Position numbers and translations under genes: made by a program
Assembly (NCBI RefSeq): GCF_900104775.1
Contig: NZ_FNSA01000003.1
Coordinates: 1,860,001-1,924,000 of the forward strand
Source of the DNA: Tsukamurella tyrosinosolvens
GTDB lineage: Bacteria; Actinomycetota; Actinomycetes; Mycobacteriales; Mycobacteriaceae
Reading direction: 5' to 3'
DNA: 64,000 nucleotides
In this document: positions 5,735-46,120 of the stretch, piece after piece
How the letters are laid out: the number at the start of each line of letters is the position of its first letter
Position numbering within the stretch: position 1 is the first letter of the stretch
Notes under the pieces: generated by a model
The model's input: only the letters and a program-made list of their open reading frames with translations
What the model was told of the DNA's origin: nothing
Databases searched by the model: none

Positions 5735-6679
5735 TCAGGGTCGTGCTACGGGCTTCACGAGCCGCTGCACGTCGTCGATGATGCGGCCGGCGCCGAGGAC
5801 GCCGATGCCGACCATCCACGTCTCGTCCTCGACGGCGAACGCCCGGCCGGCGGCGACGGCGGGAAGTGCGCCCCAGCGGGTGGTCACGGTCGCGGCGGTC
5901 GGATCGGCGCCGGCTCCGCGGGTGTGGAAGACGGTGTCGCCGTTGATCTCGTCGAAGCGCTCGGGCGAGAGTTCGACCATGGAGTGCTCGTTCCAGGCCT
6001 TCTGCGGGATGGTGAAGCCCATCGCGGTGATCACGCTGCCCGAGAAGGTCTCGGGCCCGTAGAGACGGAAGGCCGTGGCGCGGAACCGCACGATGGACAG
6101 CGTGGTGCCGGGCGCGCCGACCTGCTTGCCCACGGCCACGGCGCGGGCGTCGAGAGCCGCGAGCTTGGCGGCCATCTCGTCGGTCCGGTTCACGGCGGCC
6201 GCGGTGACGGTCGCCTGTTCCTTCCAATTGGTGCCGGAATCCTCGGAGAAGACCGTGGGCGCGATCCCGGACAACTGGGCGTACAGCTTCTCGTGGCGCA
6301 CCTTGGACCCGATGATGAGGTCGGGGCGCAGCGCGGCGATCGCCTCGACGTTCGGGGAGGTCGTCGATCCCACCGAGGTCGTGCCGCCGAGCTGATCGCG
6401 GAGGTACCCGGGGAAGCCGTCGTTCGCGGCGGAGACGGTCGCCCCGACGGGGGTGATGCCGAGCGCCACGAGGGCGTCCAGGTGCGGCGAATCGATGACC
6501 ACGACCCGCTTCGGCGCGACGGGGACCGTCGACTCGCCCATGGCGTGCTGCACGACCCGCGTGTCCGGGGCGGCGGCGTCGGTGGTGGTCGACCCGCACG
6601 CCACCAGCACGGCGGCGCTCGCCGTGGCGATGACTGCGGCGAGGAATCGGCGGCGGTTCGGGCGGGGTGCGATCGTCAT
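5735..6679 (-). CDS. Iron-siderophore ABC transporter substrate-binding lipoprotein (FecB/FepB type)
   Basis: A 314-residue exported binding protein that delivers a ferric siderophore to an ABC permease. The signal contains a twin-arginine motif (RRRFLAA) and a lipobox ending LVAC, so it is a probable Tat-exported lipoprotein. The body has the type III binding-protein pattern: PKRVVVIDSPHLDALVALG in lobe 1, NVEAIAALRPDLIIGS and a long linking helix. No permease or ATPase gene is adjacent, so it must partner with components elsewhere. It is preceded by an iron box and a leaderless -10 box. The siderophore it binds is unknown. Confidence 0.9.
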   Translation of the reverse strand: MTIAPRPNRRRFLAAVIATASAAVLVACGSTTTDAAAPDTRVVQHAMGESTVPVAPKRVVVIDSPHLDALVALGITPVGATVSAANDGFPGYLRDQLGGTTSVGSTTSPNVEAIAALRPDLIIGSKVRHEKLYAQLSGIAPTVFSEDSGTNWKEQATVTAAAVNRTDEMAAKLAALDARAVAVGKQVGAPGTTLSIVRFRATAFRLYGPETFSGSVITAMGFTIPQKAWNEHSMVELSPERFDEINGDTVFHTRGAGADPTAATVTTRWGALPAVAAGRAFAVEDETWMVGIGVLGAGRIIDDVQRLVKPVARP

Positions 6680-6685
6680 GCGGGA

Positions 6686-6713
6686 AACATAGCATTCGGT
6701 TAGGCTTGCCTTT
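6686..6713 (-). promoter_or_regulatory. IdeR/DtxR iron box and leaderless promoter
   Basis: The 19-bp site TTCGGTTAGGCTTGCCTTT at 6695-6713 matches the IdeR/DtxR consensus TTAGGTTAGGCTAACCTAA at 14 of 19 positions. The minus-strand -10 box TATGTT (6691-6686) ends 6 nt before the ATG. IdeR-Fe2+ bound here would block polymerase, giving induction in iron limitation. Confidence 0.8.
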
Positions 6714-6765: not shown

Positions 6766-7800
6766 GTGGCGAAGCTCTGGGCGATCAGTGACCTGCACGT
6801 CGGGCACCGAGGCAACGAGGGCGTCGTCGACACGGTGTGGCCCGAGTCGCCCGACGATTGGCTGATCCTGGCCGGCGACCTCTGTGAGCGCACCGACCAG
6901 CTCGACGAGGTGCTCACGGCCCTCGCGCCCAGGTTCGCGACGGTGATCTGGGTACCCGGCAACCACGAGCTCTACACGACGTCGAAGGACCCGATGCAGG
7001 TCTTCGGCGAGGCCCGGTACGACCACCTGGTGGAGATCTGCCGGCACCACGGGGTGCTCACCCCGGAGGACCCGTTCCCGGTCTTCGAGGACCCGGAATC
7101 GGGGCCGGTGACGATCGTCCCGATGTTCCTGCTCTACGACTACACCTTCCGCGACGAGGGCCTGACCACGCTCCAGGCCCTGGCCCGCGCGAAGGAGAAG
7201 AGCGTCGTCGCCACCGACGAGTTCCTGCTCTCGCCCGAGCCGTACGCCACCCGCGACGCCTGGTGCCGGGCCCGACTGGACTACACCCGCCGCCGGCTCG
7301 CCGCGCTGCCCGCCGGCACGCGGACCGTGCTCGTGAACCACTGGCCGCTGCGCCGCGAGCCCACCGAGGTGCTGTTCTACCCCGATTTCGCGTTGTGGTG
7401 CGGCACCGTCGAAACCCGCGATTGGCACGTGCGTTACAACGCCGAGGCGGTCGTGTACGGGCATCTGCACATCCCGCGCACGACCTGGTACGACGGGGTG
7501 CGGTTCGAGGAGGTCTCGGTCGGGTATCCGCGGGAGTGGCAGCAGCGCGGCCTGCCCGAGCCGCTTCTGCGGCGGATCCTGCCCGCGCCGGACTACACGG
7601 AGGAGTCGCTGGGGCATTACGGCGTGCATTTCGAGGTGGACCCGAAGTACCGGGACGACCCGGAGAAGTTCGCCGCCGAGCGCGCAGCGGCCCAGGAGCG
7701 CCTGAGCGACCGCCGCGTCGCCGCGCGGGAGCGGATCGCCGAGCGTCGGGCGGCGCGGGAGTCCGGCCGGGCGGAGCGCGAAGAAGAGGGGGAGAAATGA
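6766..7800 (+). CDS. Calcineurin-like metallophosphoesterase
   Basis: A 344-residue cytoplasmic metallophosphoesterase. Motifs in order are SDLHVGH (D9, H11), the GDLC Asp near residue 45, GNHE near residue 66 and GHLH near residue 232; together they form the di-metal centre. The C-terminal 70 residues are a charged, Arg/Glu-rich helix. The position directly before the phosphopantetheinyl transferase matches Rv2795c-pptT. GTG is the start, with TAGCGT ending 6 nt before it (leaderless). The stop overlaps the next ATG by four bases (ATGA), so they are translationally coupled. In mycobacteria a linked enzyme (PptH) removes phosphopantetheine from carrier proteins; the same role is likely here. 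Confidence 0.88.
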   Translation: MAKLWAISDLHVGHRGNEGVVDTVWPESPDDWLILAGDLCERTDQLDEVLTALAPRFATVIWVPGNHELYTTSKDPMQVFGEARYDHLVEICRHHGVLTPEDPFPVFEDPESGPVTIVPMFLLYDYTFRDEGLTTLQALARAKEKSVVATDEFLLSPEPYATRDAWCRARLDYTRRRLAALPAGTRTVLVNHWPLRREPTEVLFYPDFALWCGTVETRDWHVRYNAEAVVYGHLHIPRTTWYDGVRFEEVSVGYPREWQQRGLPEPLLRRILPAPDYTEESLGHYGVHFEVDPKYRDDPEKFAAERAAAQERLSDRRVAARERIAERRAARESGRAEREEEGEK

Positions 7801-8468
7801 TCCTGCAGTCGATGCTGCCGCGGGGCGTGGTCGCGCGGGAGGCGCAGGCCGACGTCGACGCGCCCCTGCACCCGCGGGAGGCGGCACAGATCGCGAAGGC
7901 CGTGCCCAAGCGGCAGGCCGAGTACGCGACGGTGCGTCACCTCGCCCGGGAGGCGCTGGGCGAGTTGGGTATCGGTGACGCGGTGCTCGTCAAGGGCGAG
8001 GGCGGCGGCGTGGACTGGCCGCGCAACGTCGTCGGCGCCCTCACCCACTGCGAGGGCTACCGCGGCGCGGTGGTCGGCTACCGGATGGGCGTGCGCACCA
8101 TAGGTATCGACGCCGAGCCGCACCTCGCCCTGCCGGACAAGGTGCTGCCGACGGTGTCCGTGGAGTCCGAACGGGACGTGCTCGCTGCGCGCCCCGACGA
8201 CGGTCTGCACTGGGATCGCCTCCTGTTCTGCGCGAAGGAGGCCACGTACAAGGCGTGGAACCCGATCACCGGGCGGTGGCTCGGCTTCGAGGACGCGGAG
8301 ATCACCTTCGACCTCGCCGAGCGCACCGACGACGCCGCGGAGGGCACCTTCCGCTCCCGCATCCTCATCGACGGGCGGACCACCGACGGCGGACCGCCGG
8401 TCGTCGCCTTCGACGGCCGGTGGCGGATCACCGACGGCCTCATCGTCACCTCGATCGCGGTGGTGTGA
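7797..8468 (+). CDS. pptT: 4'-phosphopantetheinyl transferase, PptT/Sfp type
   Basis: A 223-residue enzyme that moves 4'-phosphopantetheine from CoA to carrier domains of polyketide synthases, NRPSs and fatty-acid synthase. Family motifs are GIDAEPH near residue 103 (Mg2+ binding) and [11 protein letters not shown] near residue 144. PptT is essential in M. tuberculosis for mycolate and siderophore synthesis. It overlaps the metallophosphoesterase stop by ATGA and is followed after one base by truB, giving a tight three-gene operon. Pairing with a putative PptH-like hydrolase implies that holo-carrier levels are balanced by opposing enzymes. Confidence 0.93.
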
Positions 8469-13983: not shown

Positions 13984-14002
13984 CTAGGTTAGCCAAGCCT
14001 TA
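13984..14002 (+). promoter_or_regulatory. IdeR/DtxR iron box
   Basis: CTAGGTTAGCCAAGCCTTA matches the 19-bp iron-box consensus at 14 of 19 positions. It lies 12 bases before the ATG of a second binding protein, with GGAGAG between as ribosome site. Confidence 0.78.
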
Positions 14003-14014
14003 GGAGAGTCTCGG

Positions 14015-15025
14015 ATGTTCGTCGCTACGCCACCCAGCCGTCGTCAGCTCTTGCGCGGTGCGGGCCTGATCGGTGCGGCCGCCTTCGCGGCCGCGTGCGG
14101 CATCGAGGGGGGTGCGGCCGAGCCCGGAACGCGCACCGTCGACCACCTGCGCGGCACGACGGCGGTGCCCGACGACCCGCAGCGGATTGTCACGGTCGGC
14201 TTCAGCGATCAGGATCCGGTTCTCGCGCTCGGCGGAACACTCGTCGGTGTGACCGACTGGTACGGCGACTACGAGTTCGCCACGTGGCCGTGGGCGCAGC
14301 CGAAGCTGGGGGAGCAGCGCCCCGCCGTCCTGAACAAGGGAAAGTTCACCGGCACCCCCGAGTACCGGTACGAGGAGATCGCGGCGCTTCGCCCCAATCT
14401 GATCCTCGGCCTGTACACCGAGATGAACTCCGAACAGTACGAGCGGCTCTCGCGCATCGCTCCCACGGTCGGCCCGCCTGTGGGGCACAAGGAGTTCACC
14501 GCTCCGTGGGACGTCGCGACGAGACTCGTGGGCGACGCGCTCGGCCGTCGCGGCGACGCGGACCGCGCGATCGCCGGGGTGAACGAGAAGGTCGCGCAGG
14601 CGCGCGGCGCGCATCCCGAGTTCGCGGGGCGGACGGCGGTCGTCGTCGAACGGTTCCAGCCGGGTTCGACCTTCGTGCGCTCCCCGGGGGACCCGCGGTC
14701 CCGCCTGCTCACCGAGCTCGGGTTCACGGTCCCGGAGGTCGCCGGCAGTGGCTCCGGCGGGAACGACGGCACGAACCTCCCGGACGAGCGCATGGCGGAA
14801 CTGGACCAGGACGTGCTGGTGTGGAACATCGGCAGTACCCCCGCGGTGCGCACCGAGATCGAGGGGCTGCCCATCTACCGCACCGTGCCCGCCGTACGGG
14901 CGGGGCGATCGGTGTTCATCGACGACCCGCTCGTCTCGGCCGCGTGGACCTGGGGGACGGTGCTCAGCATCCCCACCGCCGTCGACGCGCTCGCGAGTAG
15001 CATCGCGCGCGTGATGACGAGGTGA
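14015..15025 (+). CDS. Iron-siderophore ABC transporter substrate-binding lipoprotein (second)
   Basis: A 336-residue binding protein of the FecB/FepB type. The signal has a twin-arginine motif (SRRQLLRGAG) and a lipobox (FAAAC). Lobe 1 contains PQRIVTVGFSDQDPVLALGG, and YEEIAALRPNLILG precedes the backbone helix. Lobe 2 carries AELDQDVLVWNIGS. It is only distantly similar to the protein at 5735-6679, so the ligand may differ. It has its own iron box and a ribosome site GGAGAG. No permease or ATPase gene lies beside it. Its stop overlaps the GTG of alkD by four bases. Confidence 0.88.
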   Translation: MFVATPPSRRQLLRGAGLIGAAAFAAACGIEGGAAEPGTRTVDHLRGTTAVPDDPQRIVTVGFSDQDPVLALGGTLVGVTDWYGDYEFATWPWAQPKLGEQRPAVLNKGKFTGTPEYRYEEIAALRPNLILGLYTEMNSEQYERLSRIAPTVGPPVGHKEFTAPWDVATRLVGDALGRRGDADRAIAGVNEKVAQARGAHPEFAGRTAVVVERFQPGSTFVRSPGDPRSRLLTELGFTVPEVAGSGSGGNDGTNLPDERMAELDQDVLVWNIGSTPAVRTEIEGLPIYRTVPAVRAGRSVFIDDPLVSAAWTWGTVLSIPTAVDALASSIARVMTR

Positions 15026-39034: not shown

Positions 39035-41740
<2,706 letters not shown>

Positions 41741-41874
41741 AGAACCCCTGTCCGTTTTCGGACTGCAAAGCGCAAAACCTCTGGAATCAAGTACGGTGTA
41801 CAGGTTTTTTCCGGGAGTACGATCCGTCCAGGCGGATGATCAGCACCCGCCCCGACCCGGTGGGAAAGGGTGTG
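41741..41874 (+). promoter_or_regulatory. Promoter region of the N-hydroxylase operon
   Basis: The gap holds a small hairpin GTCCG-TTTT-CGGAC (41750-41763), a TACGGT -10 candidate (41792-41797) and a GTAC-GGT-GTAC palindrome overlapping it, then GGAAAGGG before ATG 41875. No iron-box match is seen, unlike the two binding-protein genes. Confidence 0.45.
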
Positions 41875-43155
41875 ATGCGCGCGAAGGATCCGGTGGACGA
41901 CGGCGACGTCGTCGACGTACTCGGGGTCGGATTCGGACCCGCCAACCTGGCGCTGGCGATTGCGCTCGCGGAGTCGCCCGACCGGATCGGCACCGTGCGG
42001 TTCCTGGAGCGCCGCGAACGCTTCGCATGGCATCCCGGCATGCTGCTTCCCGGTACGTCCATGCAGATCAGCTTCCTCAAGGATCTGGTCACGCTGCGCA
42101 ACCAGGCCAGCCCGTACTCCTTCGTTGCCTATCTCGGCAGCCGCGGCCGGCTCGTGGACTTCGTCAATCGCGCCGTCCTGACCCCCGAGCGCGCCGAGTT
42201 CGCGGACTACCTGGCCTGGGCGGCTGCGTCGTTCGCCGATCGGGTGCGGTACGGCCGCACGGTGACGGGACTGTCCCGCTGCCCCGACGGTCCGCGGTTC
42301 GCGGTTCGCCATCGGGGCCCGGACGGCGATGAGCGGGTGACCCGCGCCCGGTCCGTGGTCGTCGCGCGCGGCCTGCGGCCGGTACTGCCGGTGTGGACGG
42401 ACGGGCTCGATCCGCGTCGCGTCTTCCACAACATCGACCTCGTTCCTCGGCTCGGCGAGTTGGAGCGAGATCTGCCCGACGGCGTCGCGGGCGCGCGATT
42501 CCTCGTGGTGGGCGGCGGGCAGTCGGCCGCCGAGGTGGCGCTGCACCTGCACGACTGCGGCGCCCGCGTGGACATGGCGTTCCACGGCTTCGGCCTCGCG
42601 GACGTCGACGAGAGTCCGTTCGTCAATCAGGTCTTCGATCCGGACGTGGTCGACGAGTTCGCCTCCGCGGCACCGGAGGTGCGGGAGACTCTGCTGCACC
42701 GGCACGGCAACACCAACTACGCGGCGGTCGAGCACGCGTTGACGCGGGAGCTGTACGACCGGTGGTACCGCCAGAACGTGAGCGGCCCACGCCGGCTGGG
42801 CGTGCACCGCACCAGCGAGGTCGTCACCGCCGGAAAGGCGCGCGACGGCGGGGTCGAGACGGTGCTGCGCCGCCGTACCACCGGCGAGCGCACGGCCGTG
42901 ACGGTCGACGCCGTGGTGTGTGCGACGGGCTTCGAGCCGGGCGGCCTCACCGGGCTGGACGGCGTGGCACCGCCCGACGCGACGATCCGCGTCGCCCGTT
43001 CCCACCTCGCCGTGATCGACGGCACCGCGGTGCCCGGCCTCTACGTGCAGGGCGCCGACCTCCCGGGCCACGGGCTCGGGACCACGCTGCTGTCCAACGT
43101 CGCCGTCCGTGCGGGCGAGATCGCCCGCGCGCTGTACCAGGAGGAGTCGTCATGA
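41875..43155 (+). CDS. L-lysine/L-ornithine N-monooxygenase (SidA/IucD/MbtG class)
   Basis: A 426-residue flavin enzyme that N-hydroxylates a side-chain amine, the first step to hydroxamates. FAD site: VLGVGFGPANLALAIAL. Substrate-facing family motif: MQISFLKDLVTLRNQASPYSF. NADPH site: VVGGGQSAAEVALHL. Conserved NTNYAAVEH and the C-terminal DAVVCATGFEP ATG-box complete the set. ATG at 41875 is chosen for its GGAAAGG site; 41836 is an alternative. It overlaps the next ATG (ATGA) and so is tied to the acyltransferase and the RND exporter. No NRPS is adjacent. Confidence 0.9.
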   Translation: MRAKDPVDDGDVVDVLGVGFGPANLALAIALAESPDRIGTVRFLERRERFAWHPGMLLPGTSMQISFLKDLVTLRNQASPYSFVAYLGSRGRLVDFVNRAVLTPERAEFADYLAWAAASFADRVRYGRTVTGLSRCPDGPRFAVRHRGPDGDERVTRARSVVVARGLRPVLPVWTDGLDPRRVFHNIDLVPRLGELERDLPDGVAGARFLVVGGGQSAAEVALHLHDCGARVDMAFHGFGLADVDESPFVNQVFDPDVVDEFASAAPEVRETLLHRHGNTNYAAVEHALTRELYDRWYRQNVSGPRRLGVHRTSEVVTAGKARDGGVETVLRRRTTGERTAVTVDAVVCATGFEPGGLTGLDGVAPPDATIRVARSHLAVIDGTAVPGLYVQGADLPGHGLGTTLLSNVAVRAGEIARALYQEESS

Positions 43156-43988
43156 CCACGCGGACACCGGCGGGCACCGTGCTCTTCGCGGCGACCGAGC
43201 GCACCCCGTTCACGGTCTTCGTCGCCGAGGACCCGCACGACGTCGAACGGGCGCAGGCCCTGCGGTACGACGCCTTCTCCACGGAAATGGGAGCGCCGCT
43301 GCCCGGTGCGGTGTTCAGCGAGCGACTCGGCAGGCCGATCGACGTCGACCGGTTCGACGACTACAGCGCGCACCTGCTCGTGCGGCACGACCCGACCGAC
43401 GAGATCGTGGGCTGCTACCGGATCATCCTGCCCGCGCCCAGCGGGCAGCGGGAGGTGTTCACCACCAGTATGTTCCGCCTCAGCCCGGCATTCGCGGCGA
43501 TGGCGGACGACGTCGCGGAGTGGGGGCGTGCGACGATCGCCGCAGGCTATCGCGGCGGCGTGGTGTCGGTGCTCCTGCGGATCGCGCTTCTCGCCTTCTA
43601 CGAGCGATCGGGCTTCAGGTACGCGATGGGTTGCATGTCGGTCCGGATGGAGGACGGCGTGCATCCGCGCGCCGCCCTGGTCCGTGCCGCGCTCGGCTTC
43701 CTCGCCGACAACGACGCCCTCGCCGACGGGGCGGTGCGCGCCGACCCCCTCCGGCCCGTCGCCGTCGACGGGGTCCCGATCGCCGAGCTCCCGCGGCCCG
43801 AGGGCGCCGACGCGGACCTGGTGCCGCCGACGATTCGCATCGCGGTCCGGTACGGCGGCATCGTCTGCGGCATGCCCTCGTACGACCCCGATTTCGAGAT
43901 GGCCGACTTCCTGGTGCTGTTCGAGGACGAGCGGATGCGCGCAGCCGGATGCCTCGACGAGGTCCGCTCCTTCCTCGCGGCGCTGTGA
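43152..43988 (+). CDS. OlsB/hemolysin-type GNAT N-acyltransferase
   Basis: A 278-residue acyltransferase of the PF13444 (Acetyltransf_5) type, the fold of ornithine-lipid enzyme OlsB, which transfers a long acyl chain from ACP to an amine. The core has ERAQALRYDAFSTEMG, then EIVGCYRIILP and EWGRATIAAGYRGG, then LLAFYERSGFRYAMGCMSV, all typical of the family. The C-terminus has a 70-residue extension with MPSYDPDFEMADFLVLFED, present in many members. ATGA overlap with the N-hydroxylase implies it acylates the hydroxyamine product or the alpha-amine of the same amino acid. Specificity is not proven. Confidence 0.85.
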   Translation: MTTRTPAGTVLFAATERTPFTVFVAEDPHDVERAQALRYDAFSTEMGAPLPGAVFSERLGRPIDVDRFDDYSAHLLVRHDPTDEIVGCYRIILPAPSGQREVFTTSMFRLSPAFAAMADDVAEWGRATIAAGYRGGVVSVLLRIALLAFYERSGFRYAMGCMSVRMEDGVHPRAALVRAALGFLADNDALADGAVRADPLRPVAVDGVPIAELPRPEGADADLVPPTIRIAVRYGGIVCGMPSYDPDFEMADFLVLFEDERMRAAGCLDEVRSFLAAL

Positions 43989-46120
43989 TCGCCCGCCTCA
44001 CCCGCGCCGTCGCTGCGCGCCCCCGCACGGTGCTCGCGGCGTCGCTGCTCCTGCTCGTGGTGCTGGGGTGGCTCGGTGCCGGCGTCGGCGGCGCGCTCCG
44101 CAGCGGCGGGAGCACCGACCCCGCCGCCGAATCCGCCCGCGCGCAGCGGAGTCTGGAGGACGACTTCCGTCGCGGCGGCTCCTCGCTCGTCCTCACGGTG
44201 CGCTCGGAGAAGCCCGACGCGGCGCCCGCAGCCGCCGAGTACGGTCGCGCCGTCACCGACGCACTCCGGCGGACTCCGGCGGTCCAGTCAGCCGTCTCCG
44301 CGTGGTCCGATCCCGCCGCCGCGGCCCGCCTGACCTCGACGGACGGTCGCATCGGTCTCGTCGTCGCGAGTCTCGCCGGTGGTACCGGGGACGCGCCCGA
44401 CCATGCCCGCGCCATCGTCGACGGCCTGCCGCGCCCGCCCGACGGGGTGCGGATCGAGGCCGGGGGCGAGGCGATGACCTACCTGCAGATCAACGAGCAG
44501 TCGGGCGAGGACCTGGTGCGCGCGGAGCTGATCGCCCTGCCGCTCACCTTCCTGGTCCTGGTGTGGGCCTTCGGTGGGCTCGTCGCCGCCGCCGTGCCCG
44601 TCGTCGTCGGGATCGCCGCCATCATCGCTACGTCCGGGCTGTTGCGGCTCGTGGCCGAGGCGACCGACGTCTCGGTGTTCGCGCTCAACCTCATCACCGC
44701 GATGAGCCTGGCGCTGGCCATCGACTACACCCTGCTGGTCGTGAGCCGGTACCGCGAGGAGGTACCGGGCCGGGGCCGTGACGAGGCGCTCGTCGTCGCG
44801 ATGGCGACCGCCGGGAGGACGGTGCTGTTCTCCGCGATCACGGTGGGGCTCAGCCTGGCCGCGATGGTGCTCTTCCCCATGTACTTCCTGCGCTCCTTCG
44901 CGTACGCCGGCCTGGTCGTGGTCGCGTTCACGGCACTCGCCACGCTGATCGTGACGCCGGCGATCCTGGCACTCCTGGGCGACCGGATCGACAAGCTCCG
45001 CGTGGGCCGCGGGCCGCGCCCCGCGGACGAGTCGCGCTGGTACCGGGCGGTGAAAGCCGTGCAGCGCCGGGCGGTCCCGCTCGGCATCGCCGTGGTGGTA
45101 CTCCTGCTCGCGCTCGGCGCACCCTTCCTCGGCGCGAAACTCGGCTATCCCGACGACCGCGCGCTGCCGACCACGGCCTCGTCGCACGCCGTCGGCGACG
45201 AACTGCGGACCGGCTTCCGCCCGAACCCCGCCGCCGACGTCCTGATCCTGTTGCCGGAGGGGGCACCGTCGGGGACCGAGGACTACGCCCGGGACCTGTC
45301 CCGGACCACCGGCACGGGGCCGGTCGTCGGGCCCGACGGGACGTGGCTGCGCGGCGCCCGCGTCGCCGACGGCGACCCGACGGCCCGAGCCGGTTTCGCG
45401 CGCCTGGTGACGGTGGCGAGCGAGCACGACCCGCGATCGGAGGAGGGGCGCGCCCAGCTGGATGCGCTGCGCGCAGTCCCGGCGCCCGCCCCGACGCTCT
45501 TCGCCGGTGCGGCGCAGGCGGACCGGGACGCGGTGGACTCCATCCTCGGGGCGGTGCCGCGGGTGCTCGCGGCGATCGCCGTGACCACCTTCCTGCTGCT
45601 GTTCCTGCTCACCGGGAGCGTGCTGCTGCCGCTGAAGGCGCTGGTGCTCAACGTGCTCTCGCTCTCGGCGACCTTCGGGGCGATGGTGTGGGTCTTCCAG
45701 GAGGGCCACCTCGGCGGGCTCGGGACGACGGTGACCGGCCACCTCATCGCGGACATGCCCGTTCTGATGTTCTGCATCGCCTTCGGCCTGTCGATGGACT
45801 ACGAGGTCTTCCTGCTGTCCCGGATCCGCGAGGAGTGGCAGGACCTGCCCGGCCGGGACCGCGCCGCGAACGACGAGGCCGTCGCCCGCGGCATCGCGAG
45901 CACGGCGCGGGTGGTCACGGCCGCCGCGCTGCTCATGGCGGTGGTCTTCGCGGCGATCGGCTTCTCCGAGGTGTCGTTCATGCGGATGCTCGGCGTCGGG
46001 CTGGCGATCGCCGTGCTGCTGGACGCGACGCTGGTGCGGCTGGTGCTGCTGCCCGCGTTCATGCGGATCGCGGGCACCGCGAACTGGTGGCCGGGACTCA
46101 GAGCCAGCCGCGGCGCTTGA
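43985..46120 (+). CDS. MMPL/RND-family exporter
   Basis: A 711-residue MmpL-like transporter with a large exported loop after TM1, a five- to six-helix block (TM2-6), a second loop (residues ~370-510) and a second block. Family signatures are AMSLALAIDYTLLVVSRYREE and CIAFGLSMDYEVFLLSRIREEW. GTG overlaps the acyltransferase stop by four bases. No MmpS partner is present. In mycobacteria MmpL4/5 export siderophores and others export lipids. Placement after hydroxylase-acyltransferase makes a hydroxamate or acyl-amino-acid lipid the likely cargo (inference). Confidence 0.9.
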   Translation: MIARLTRAVAARPRTVLAASLLLLVVLGWLGAGVGGALRSGGSTDPAAESARAQRSLEDDFRRGGSSLVLTVRSEKPDAAPAAAEYGRAVTDALRRTPAVQSAVSAWSDPAAAARLTSTDGRIGLVVASLAGGTGDAPDHARAIVDGLPRPPDGVRIEAGGEAMTYLQINEQSGEDLVRAELIALPLTFLVLVWAFGGLVAAAVPVVVGIAAIIATSGLLRLVAEATDVSVFALNLITAMSLALAIDYTLLVVSRYREEVPGRGRDEALVVAMATAGRTVLFSAITVGLSLAAMVLFPMYFLRSFAYAGLVVVAFTALATLIVTPAILALLGDRIDKLRVGRGPRPADESRWYRAVKAVQRRAVPLGIAVVVLLLALGAPFLGAKLGYPDDRALPTTASSHAVGDELRTGFRPNPAADVLILLPEGAPSGTEDYARDLSRTTGTGPVVGPDGTWLRGARVADGDPTARAGFARLVTVASEHDPRSEEGRAQLDALRAVPAPAPTLFAGAAQADRDAVDSILGAVPRVLAAIAVTTFLLLFLLTGSVLLPLKALVLNVLSLSATFGAMVWVFQEGHLGGLGTTVTGHLIADMPVLMFCIAFGLSMDYEVFLLSRIREEWQDLPGRDRAANDEAVARGIASTARVVTAAALLMAVVFAAIGFSEVSFMRMLGVGLAIAVLLDATLVRLVLLPAFMRIAGTANWWPGLRASRGA

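Follow-up and report, generated by a model that had tools for sequence, protein, structure and literature searches.

A candidate self-contained hydroxylase-acyltransferase-exporter module for a secreted N-acyl-hydroxyornithine in Tsukamurella and two other genera

We analyzed a stretch of 64,000 nucleotides of Tsukamurella tyrosinosolvens DNA (contig NZ_FNSA01000003.1, positions 1,860,001 to 1,924,000, on C3 of genome G000; hereafter the window), in which three adjacent genes encode a flavin N-monooxygenase of the SidA type, an N-acyltransferase of family PF13444, and an exporter of the MMPL family. With a probability of about 0.6, these genes form a self-contained biosynthesis and export module, in which two enzymes would make an N-acyl-N5-hydroxyornithine for secretion, possibly after closure to a cyclic hydroxamate. 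Using FAD, NADPH, and O2, the monooxygenase would hydroxylate the N5 of free L-ornithine (or, less likely, act on L-lysine). The acyltransferase would take a fatty acyl chain from either acyl-CoA or acyl-acyl carrier protein and transfer it to the hydroxy amino acid, more likely to its alpha-amine. The resulting N-alpha-acyl-N5-hydroxyornithine could close to a cyclic hydroxamate lactam, and the MMPL protein (a DHA2-type transporter of the major facilitator superfamily, MFS, in other genera) would export the product. We infer in this way the substrate, product, acyl donor, site of acylation, order of the steps, cyclization, export, and biological role.

What most strongly suggests joint action of the three functions is the apparent re-assembly of the module in other genera. 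Among 401 genomes drawn from the family, the acyltransferase was found with a SidA gene beside it in 20, i.e., 13 of the 16 Tsukamurella genomes listed, 3 of a genus designated g2, and 4 of another, g323. At most six candidates (four in one step) were scored per genome, so that some modules may have been missed. A 21st match (G301) was of the OlsB type and lay beside cysteine-desulfurase-like and PlsC-like genes. Genus g2 is probably Mycobacterium, as indicated by a salicylate synthase above cut-off (G262, G043, and G258), mbt clusters, and a PE-PGRS-like open reading frame (ORF). The gene order was SidA-acyltransferase-MMPL in all 13 Tsukamurella modules and MFS-acyltransferase-SidA in the seven modules of g2 and g323. 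The exporter of these seven was a DHA2-type MFS protein, above the TIGR00711 cut-off in six cases and just below it (212.9 versus 230.2 bits) in the locus L075. An exporter gene was therefore found in 20 of the 20 modules looked at. A preliminary description of this DNA had made the MMPL protein part of the system; this holds for Tsukamurella, but MMPL is not essential, since a DHA2 MFS stands in its place in seven genomes of two other genera.

The preliminary description had also proposed a phylogeny of the acyltransferase against OlsB. A tree of 73 rows (65 distinct sequences) placed the 20 hydroxylase-linked rows in one separate clade with a support of 100/99; SidA was adjacent in 20/20 rows of this clade versus 0/53 of the remaining rows, which were best matches, some of them one gene fetched twice, with flanks of mostly 1.5 kb. 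In a tree of 43 hydroxylases, which like the test mentioned below used 17 of the 20 module rows, the Tsukamurella module enzymes grouped with the SidA of a Tsukamurella nonribosomal peptide synthetase (NRPS) cluster (support 96/98, or 100/98 without the long row L145), and the module hydroxylases of g2 and g323 formed a separate group (90/83). A single clade of module hydroxylases was rejected (p-AU 0.0048, L145 left out). The module hydroxylases have two origins: they were recruited anew or replaced around one acyltransferase lineage, and the exporter was exchanged. Because the link with a hydroxylase was kept despite the change of hydroxylase lineage and exporter, hydroxylation, acylation, and export most likely act together.

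Within Tsukamurella, the triplet was contiguous in all nine other loci fetched. The neighborhood that the preliminary description wanted to see conserved is thus kept in the genus and recurs in other genera, which removes the objection that it might be peculiar to this stretch. The flanks were also constant in the nine loci, with a glucosidase gene upstream and CorA and dapB genes downstream, and the ATGA and GTGA junctions were seen in eight (the printed stretch of L007 does not cover them). Leaving out the locus L008, protein identity to the window was 64-88% for the hydroxylase, 73-96% for the acyltransferase, and 78-93% for the MMPL protein. All three genes are under purifying selection, the dN/dS against the window being 0.15-0.33, 0.06-0.28, and 0.11-0.25, respectively (eight comparisons each, L008 excluded). 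Two non-Tsukamurella loci from the same search (metagenome-assembled genomes of Polaromonas and Brachymonas) had the acyltransferase only, with 33-34% identity. In Tsukamurella sp. PLM1 (L008/L102), the hydroxylase and MMPL genes were split over several frames, which is probably due to sequencing error in that record, or perhaps to decay. Extra DNA was found between the MMPL and CorA genes in some loci, about 0.5 kb in L004, L006, and L010 and 2.4-2.5 kb in L007, L009, and L078; it contained ORFs in L009 and L078.

A search of 396 genomes of the phylum with the module profile, again with at most six candidates scored per genome, yielded 28 matches at E <= 1e-40, distributed over 25 genomes. 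Module-type matches were obtained once each in G000 and G043 (458 bits), the remainder scoring from 270 bits down. One module copy was found in a search of 14 plasmid records, in a T. tyrosinosolvens record resembling a piece of chromosome, and no additional module was recognized among the records listed in further plasmid searches (8 of 9 and 15 of 97). The 'plasmids 15 and 26' of T. tyrosinosolvens NCTC13231 (NZ_LR134457.1 and NZ_LR134468.1; L152 and L182) carry dapB, thymidylate synthase, and siderophore cluster genes; as these sit on a 4.9-Mb contig in G000, both plasmids look like chromosome pieces.

The arrangement of the genes in the window (Table 1) was as first described: the genes lie on the + strand with four-base overlaps, ATGA between the SidA-type and acyltransferase genes and GTGA between the acyltransferase and MMPL genes, and the products match PF13434, PF13444, and PF03176. 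RefSeq annotates the same trio in strain NCTC13231, the acyltransferase of which is 100% identical to that of the window, as a SidA/IucD/PvdA family monooxygenase, a GNAT family N-acyltransferase, and an MMPL family transporter. In that record, the hydroxylase starts at an ATG equivalent to 41836; the alternative ATG at 41875 is preceded by gggaaaggg and agrees better with the match starts of several relatives. No additional gene is annotated in it between the glucosidase and CorA genes, hence no adjacent MmpS, NRPS, or regulator; the statements that the exporter lacks an MmpS and that no NRPS adjoins the operon were therefore correct. The putative promoter has GTAC and TANNAT elements that were common to 11 aligned Tsukamurella upstream sequences.

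Table 1. Position of the module genes and of other features of the window
Feature	Position	Strand	Basis
SidA/PvdA/KtzI-type flavin N-monooxygenase, probably an L-ornithine N5-hydroxylase	41875 (or 41836)-43155	+	PF13434, 312.8 bits
PF13444 (OlsB/LuxI-fold) N-acyltransferase, constant member of the module	43152-43988	+	PF13444, 72.2 bits
MMPL-family RND exporter, 711 aa, without MmpS partner	43985-46120	+	PF03176, 253.2 bits, two stretches
Putative operon promoter: GTGTAC (41796-41801), 16-nt spacer, TACGAT (41818-41823)	41796-41823	+	alignment
Siderophore-type periplasmic binding protein (PF01497)	5735-6679	-	iron-box-like site just upstream, 6695-6713
Siderophore-type periplasmic binding protein (PF01497)	14015-15025	+	iron-box-like site just upstream, 13984-14002

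The monooxygenase belongs to the PF13434 N-monooxygenases of the SidA/PvdA/KtzI type. The match spans positions 2-338 of 339, and the motifs GVGFGPANL, FLKDL, SPFVNQ, NTNY, GGGQSAAE, CATGF, and TLLSN, which we take to be cofactor- and substrate-binding motifs, were present and aligned to those of solved enzymes. The best solved relatives were 9nns (310.8 bits), KtzI (259.3 bits), and 3s5w, an L-ornithine 5-monooxygenase (252.6 bits). The comparison with MbtG made in the preliminary description was misleading: the enzyme is of the PvdA/KtzI kind, its sister being the hydroxylase of a dihydroxybenzoate (DHB) NRPS cluster, and a close relation to the MbtG of mbt clusters was not found, the identity with the PF13434 enzyme of the G043 mbt cluster (named by its position and PF13434 match) being 22% over 155 residues. 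The structure 9nns, called MbtG by its depositors, is closer to the window enzyme; as it matches well, yet the mbt-cluster enzyme is distant, the name MbtG alone is no guide.

We also considered that the g2 module hydroxylase might substitute for MbtG. This was rejected because the mbt clusters of G043 and G262 each encode a distant PF13434 enzyme themselves (39.7 and 38.6 bits, respectively); that of G043 shares 23% identity over 175 residues with the module hydroxylase of the same genome. At E <= 1e-30, G262, G043, and G258 each gave a single match, the module hydroxylase. When 23 g2 genomes were searched with it, matches were obtained only in these three and in G166, where the protein shared 36% identity and no acyltransferase lay within the fetched flank. 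A review states that, of all N-hydroxylases, the mycobacterial lysine hydroxylases appear to be the most distant (PMC7347517).

The acyltransferase has the family match, the fold, and the conserved acidic/arginine core of the PF13444/LuxI-fold proteins. It scored below the OlsB NCBIfam equivalog cut-offs (70.7 of 350 and 68.5 of 320 bits), as did the second PF13444 protein of the genome (112.2 of 350 and 114 of 320 bits). The gene of the latter, presumably of the Rv3027c type, lies at C3:3746.5 kb and is adjoined by PlsC/OlsA-like and cysteine-desulfurase-like genes, so that the window acyltransferase is not the only OlsB candidate of the genome. Among the structural matches listed, the predicted structure was closest to acyl-homoserine lactone (AHL) synthases (BjaI, RpaI, and LasI) and FeeM, with 9-17% identity in the structural alignment; ordinary GNATs ranked close behind. 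FeeM and AHL synthases acylate the alpha-amine of amino acids. MbtK was missing from the best 50 structural rows, which carries no evidential weight. IucB and MbtK are PF13523 and not PF13444 proteins. An MbtK-type partner was looked for and discarded, as the two PF13523 matches of the genome are located elsewhere, the better one adjoining a gene taken for peptidyl-tRNA hydrolase.

The third protein has the two MMPL stretches and the hydrophobic bundles of an MMPL exporter; its hydrophobic segments are found close to the N terminus and within the blocks 175-389 and 516-696. Its scores were 310.8 bits with the MmpL3-type model (cut-off 1400) and 181.6 bits with the ActII-type subfamily model (cut-off 874.7).

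A stand-alone hydroxamate siderophore is an alternative that we regard as possible, though rather unlikely. The acyltransferase would then act on the N5-hydroxylamine, as IucB, MbtK, and SidF do, and the resulting fatty hydroxamate, an amphiphile, would be exported, bind Fe(III), and serve in iron uptake. The combination of hydroxylase, acyltransferase, and exporter follows the logic of hydroxamate siderophores, SidF was among the structural fold matches, and the two siderophore-binding proteins with an iron box are located in the window at a distance of 27-36 kb. In G262 (L075), a gene for a siderophore-interacting protein (SIP; 7559-8452, - strand) directly follows the module hydroxylase, and between the two genes, at 8289, is an iron box (3 mismatches). 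The family of the acyltransferase speaks against it, however, as does the fact that the Tsukamurella operon comprises no SIP or receptor gene. Furthermore, no iron box was found with a consensus search of 41301-42000 even with up to 7 mismatches, in agreement with the preliminary description, whereas the same consensus gave sites with 3, 5, and 5 mismatches in the DHB-NRPS cluster and with 4 and 5 mismatches before the two binding-protein genes of the window. Five further stretches of this genome (86 kb) gave no site, nor, with up to 5 mismatches, did 8 random 64-kb sequences or the fetched stretches of six of the seven non-Tsukamurella modules. As the operon carries no iron box while iron genes of the same genome do, it does not look like an IdeR/DtxR-regulated iron-acquisition operon, and a classical iron-controlled siderophore is not supported.

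The genome, in addition, already has a complete siderophore cluster. Its other full-length SidA (334 bits) sits in a DHB/formyl-hydroxyornithine NRPS cluster, together with isochorismate synthase, isochorismatase, DHB-AMP ligase, a short-chain dehydrogenase/reductase, the NRPS, MbtH, a formyltransferase, a SIP, and binding proteins; the ABC transporters come from the NCTC13231 record alone. Five proteins of the NCTC13231 cluster are 100% identical in G000. In the two module-free Tsukamurella genomes searched (G313 and G895), the only SidA is of the NRPS type. The DHB/hydroxyornithine NRPS (G000:C3:4455453-4464011; L036:453-9011) ends in acyl-CoA thioesterase domains of the TesB/4HBT_3 type, no other thioesterase family being listed for it. 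The 15 Condensation matches of the genome are spread over four places with long ORFs and four short ORFs; the adenylation motifs printed were three for the NRPS at 4826 kb, two for the DHB NRPS, and none for a protein at 342 kb. The latter, of about 3470 residues (G000:C3:342015-352409; L037/L038), had several Condensation matches, and no adenylation-motif site was found in it with the pattern used. A pathway of the NRPS-independent siderophore (NIS) type was ruled out by the absence of any IucA/IucC match in the genome; with no NRPS adjacent either, the operon belongs to neither type of siderophore pathway.

It is improbable that the product is an N-hydroxylated (lyso-)ornithine lipid retained in the envelope and moved across the inner membrane by the MMPL protein. 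The PF13444 match and the similarity to the OlsB profile would fit with this, and MMPL proteins do move envelope lipids such as trehalose monomycolate. However, no OlsA of the PlsC type adjoins the acyltransferase gene, none being found between the glucosidase and CorA genes, and an OlsBA-like pair exists at C3:3745649-3747324. An exporter gene in every module, and in other genera a DHA2 MFS of the efflux type, is a better fit to a released small molecule. For these reasons the membrane ornithine lipid put forward in the preliminary description is the less likely product. Similarly improbable is that the monooxygenase supplies an N-hydroxy amino acid to a distant NRPS, next to an unrelated acyltransferase and exporter: siderophore genes may be split between loci and Condensation domains abound, but the hydroxamate-type cluster owns its SidA and formyltransferase, the mbt clusters of the two g2 genomes examined keep their own PF13434 enzyme, and the acyltransferase clade is hydroxylase-linked in all of its 20 rows, so that, as far as sequence tells, this objection raised at the outset does not apply.

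Secretion of an N-acyl-N5-hydroxyornithine by a dedicated module is thus the interpretation that we prefer. It retains from the preliminary description the NRPS-free hydroxylase-acyltransferase-exporter unit, conserved and recurrent, and abandons the comparison with MbtG, the ornithine lipid as product, and the MMPL protein as an essential component. An unlikely but more specific version is that a LuxI-fold enzyme turns N5-hydroxyornithine into a 3-acylamino-1-hydroxypiperidin-2-one, the lactam counterpart of an acyl-homoserine lactone; mycolic-acid bacteria would secrete it as a signal, a competition factor, or a metal-binding lipid, and its pathway would have been re-assembled, with different hydroxylases and exporters joining the same acyltransferase. 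In either form, the change of hydroxylase lineage and exporter around one acyltransferase yields a precise prediction that is cheap to test. If true, this would be among the smallest routes to an N-hydroxylated lipid-amino acid, independent of NRPS and NIS synthetases. No such module was described in the open-access literature among the matches listed, judged by titles and the beginning of abstracts, and the secreted small molecule may be undescribed. Even the lipidome of M. tuberculosis, the best-studied of the group, is largely unassigned according to the excerpted text of a recent paper (PMC12856293).

The module shares features with several known systems. It resembles mycobactin synthesis by MbtG and MbtK and other hydroxamate pathways in combining N-hydroxylation with N-acylation, but differs from mycobactin-type pathways in having no adjoining NRPS or NIS synthetase, an acyltransferase of a different family, and no iron box. 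Its hydroxylase is sister to that of the Tsukamurella DHB/formyl-hydroxyornithine cluster; the latter encodes a whole NRPS siderophore pathway, including formyltransferase, DHB genes, and SIP. Like OlsBA, it has a PF13444 acyltransferase related to ornithine N-alpha-acyltransferase; unlike OlsBA, this enzyme falls in a separate clade, is not accompanied by OlsA, and is linked to a hydroxylase and an exporter. The AHL synthases (BjaI, RpaI, LasI) and FeeM provide the nearest folds among the structural matches listed, and we know of no link of these enzymes to a hydroxylase. The nearest described systems that we found are the tyzACB/trzAS oxazolone clusters of Mycobacterium and Rhodococcus (PMC12856293). 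In the excerpts of that paper, the tyz/trz clusters of mycolic-acid bacteria make N-acyl tyrosine and tryptophan oxazolones with an N-acyltransferase, a ThiF-like cyclase, and a flavin oxidase, and acyl-tryptophan is found mainly in the culture supernatant. Both systems are minimal, NRPS-free clusters of mycolic-acid bacteria that pair an amino-acid N-acyltransferase with a flavin enzyme; where tyz/trz, as presented in these excerpts, act on tyrosine or tryptophan with a ThiF-like cyclase and a flavin-dependent oxidase, the module of the window has an N-hydroxylating monooxygenase and an exporter gene.

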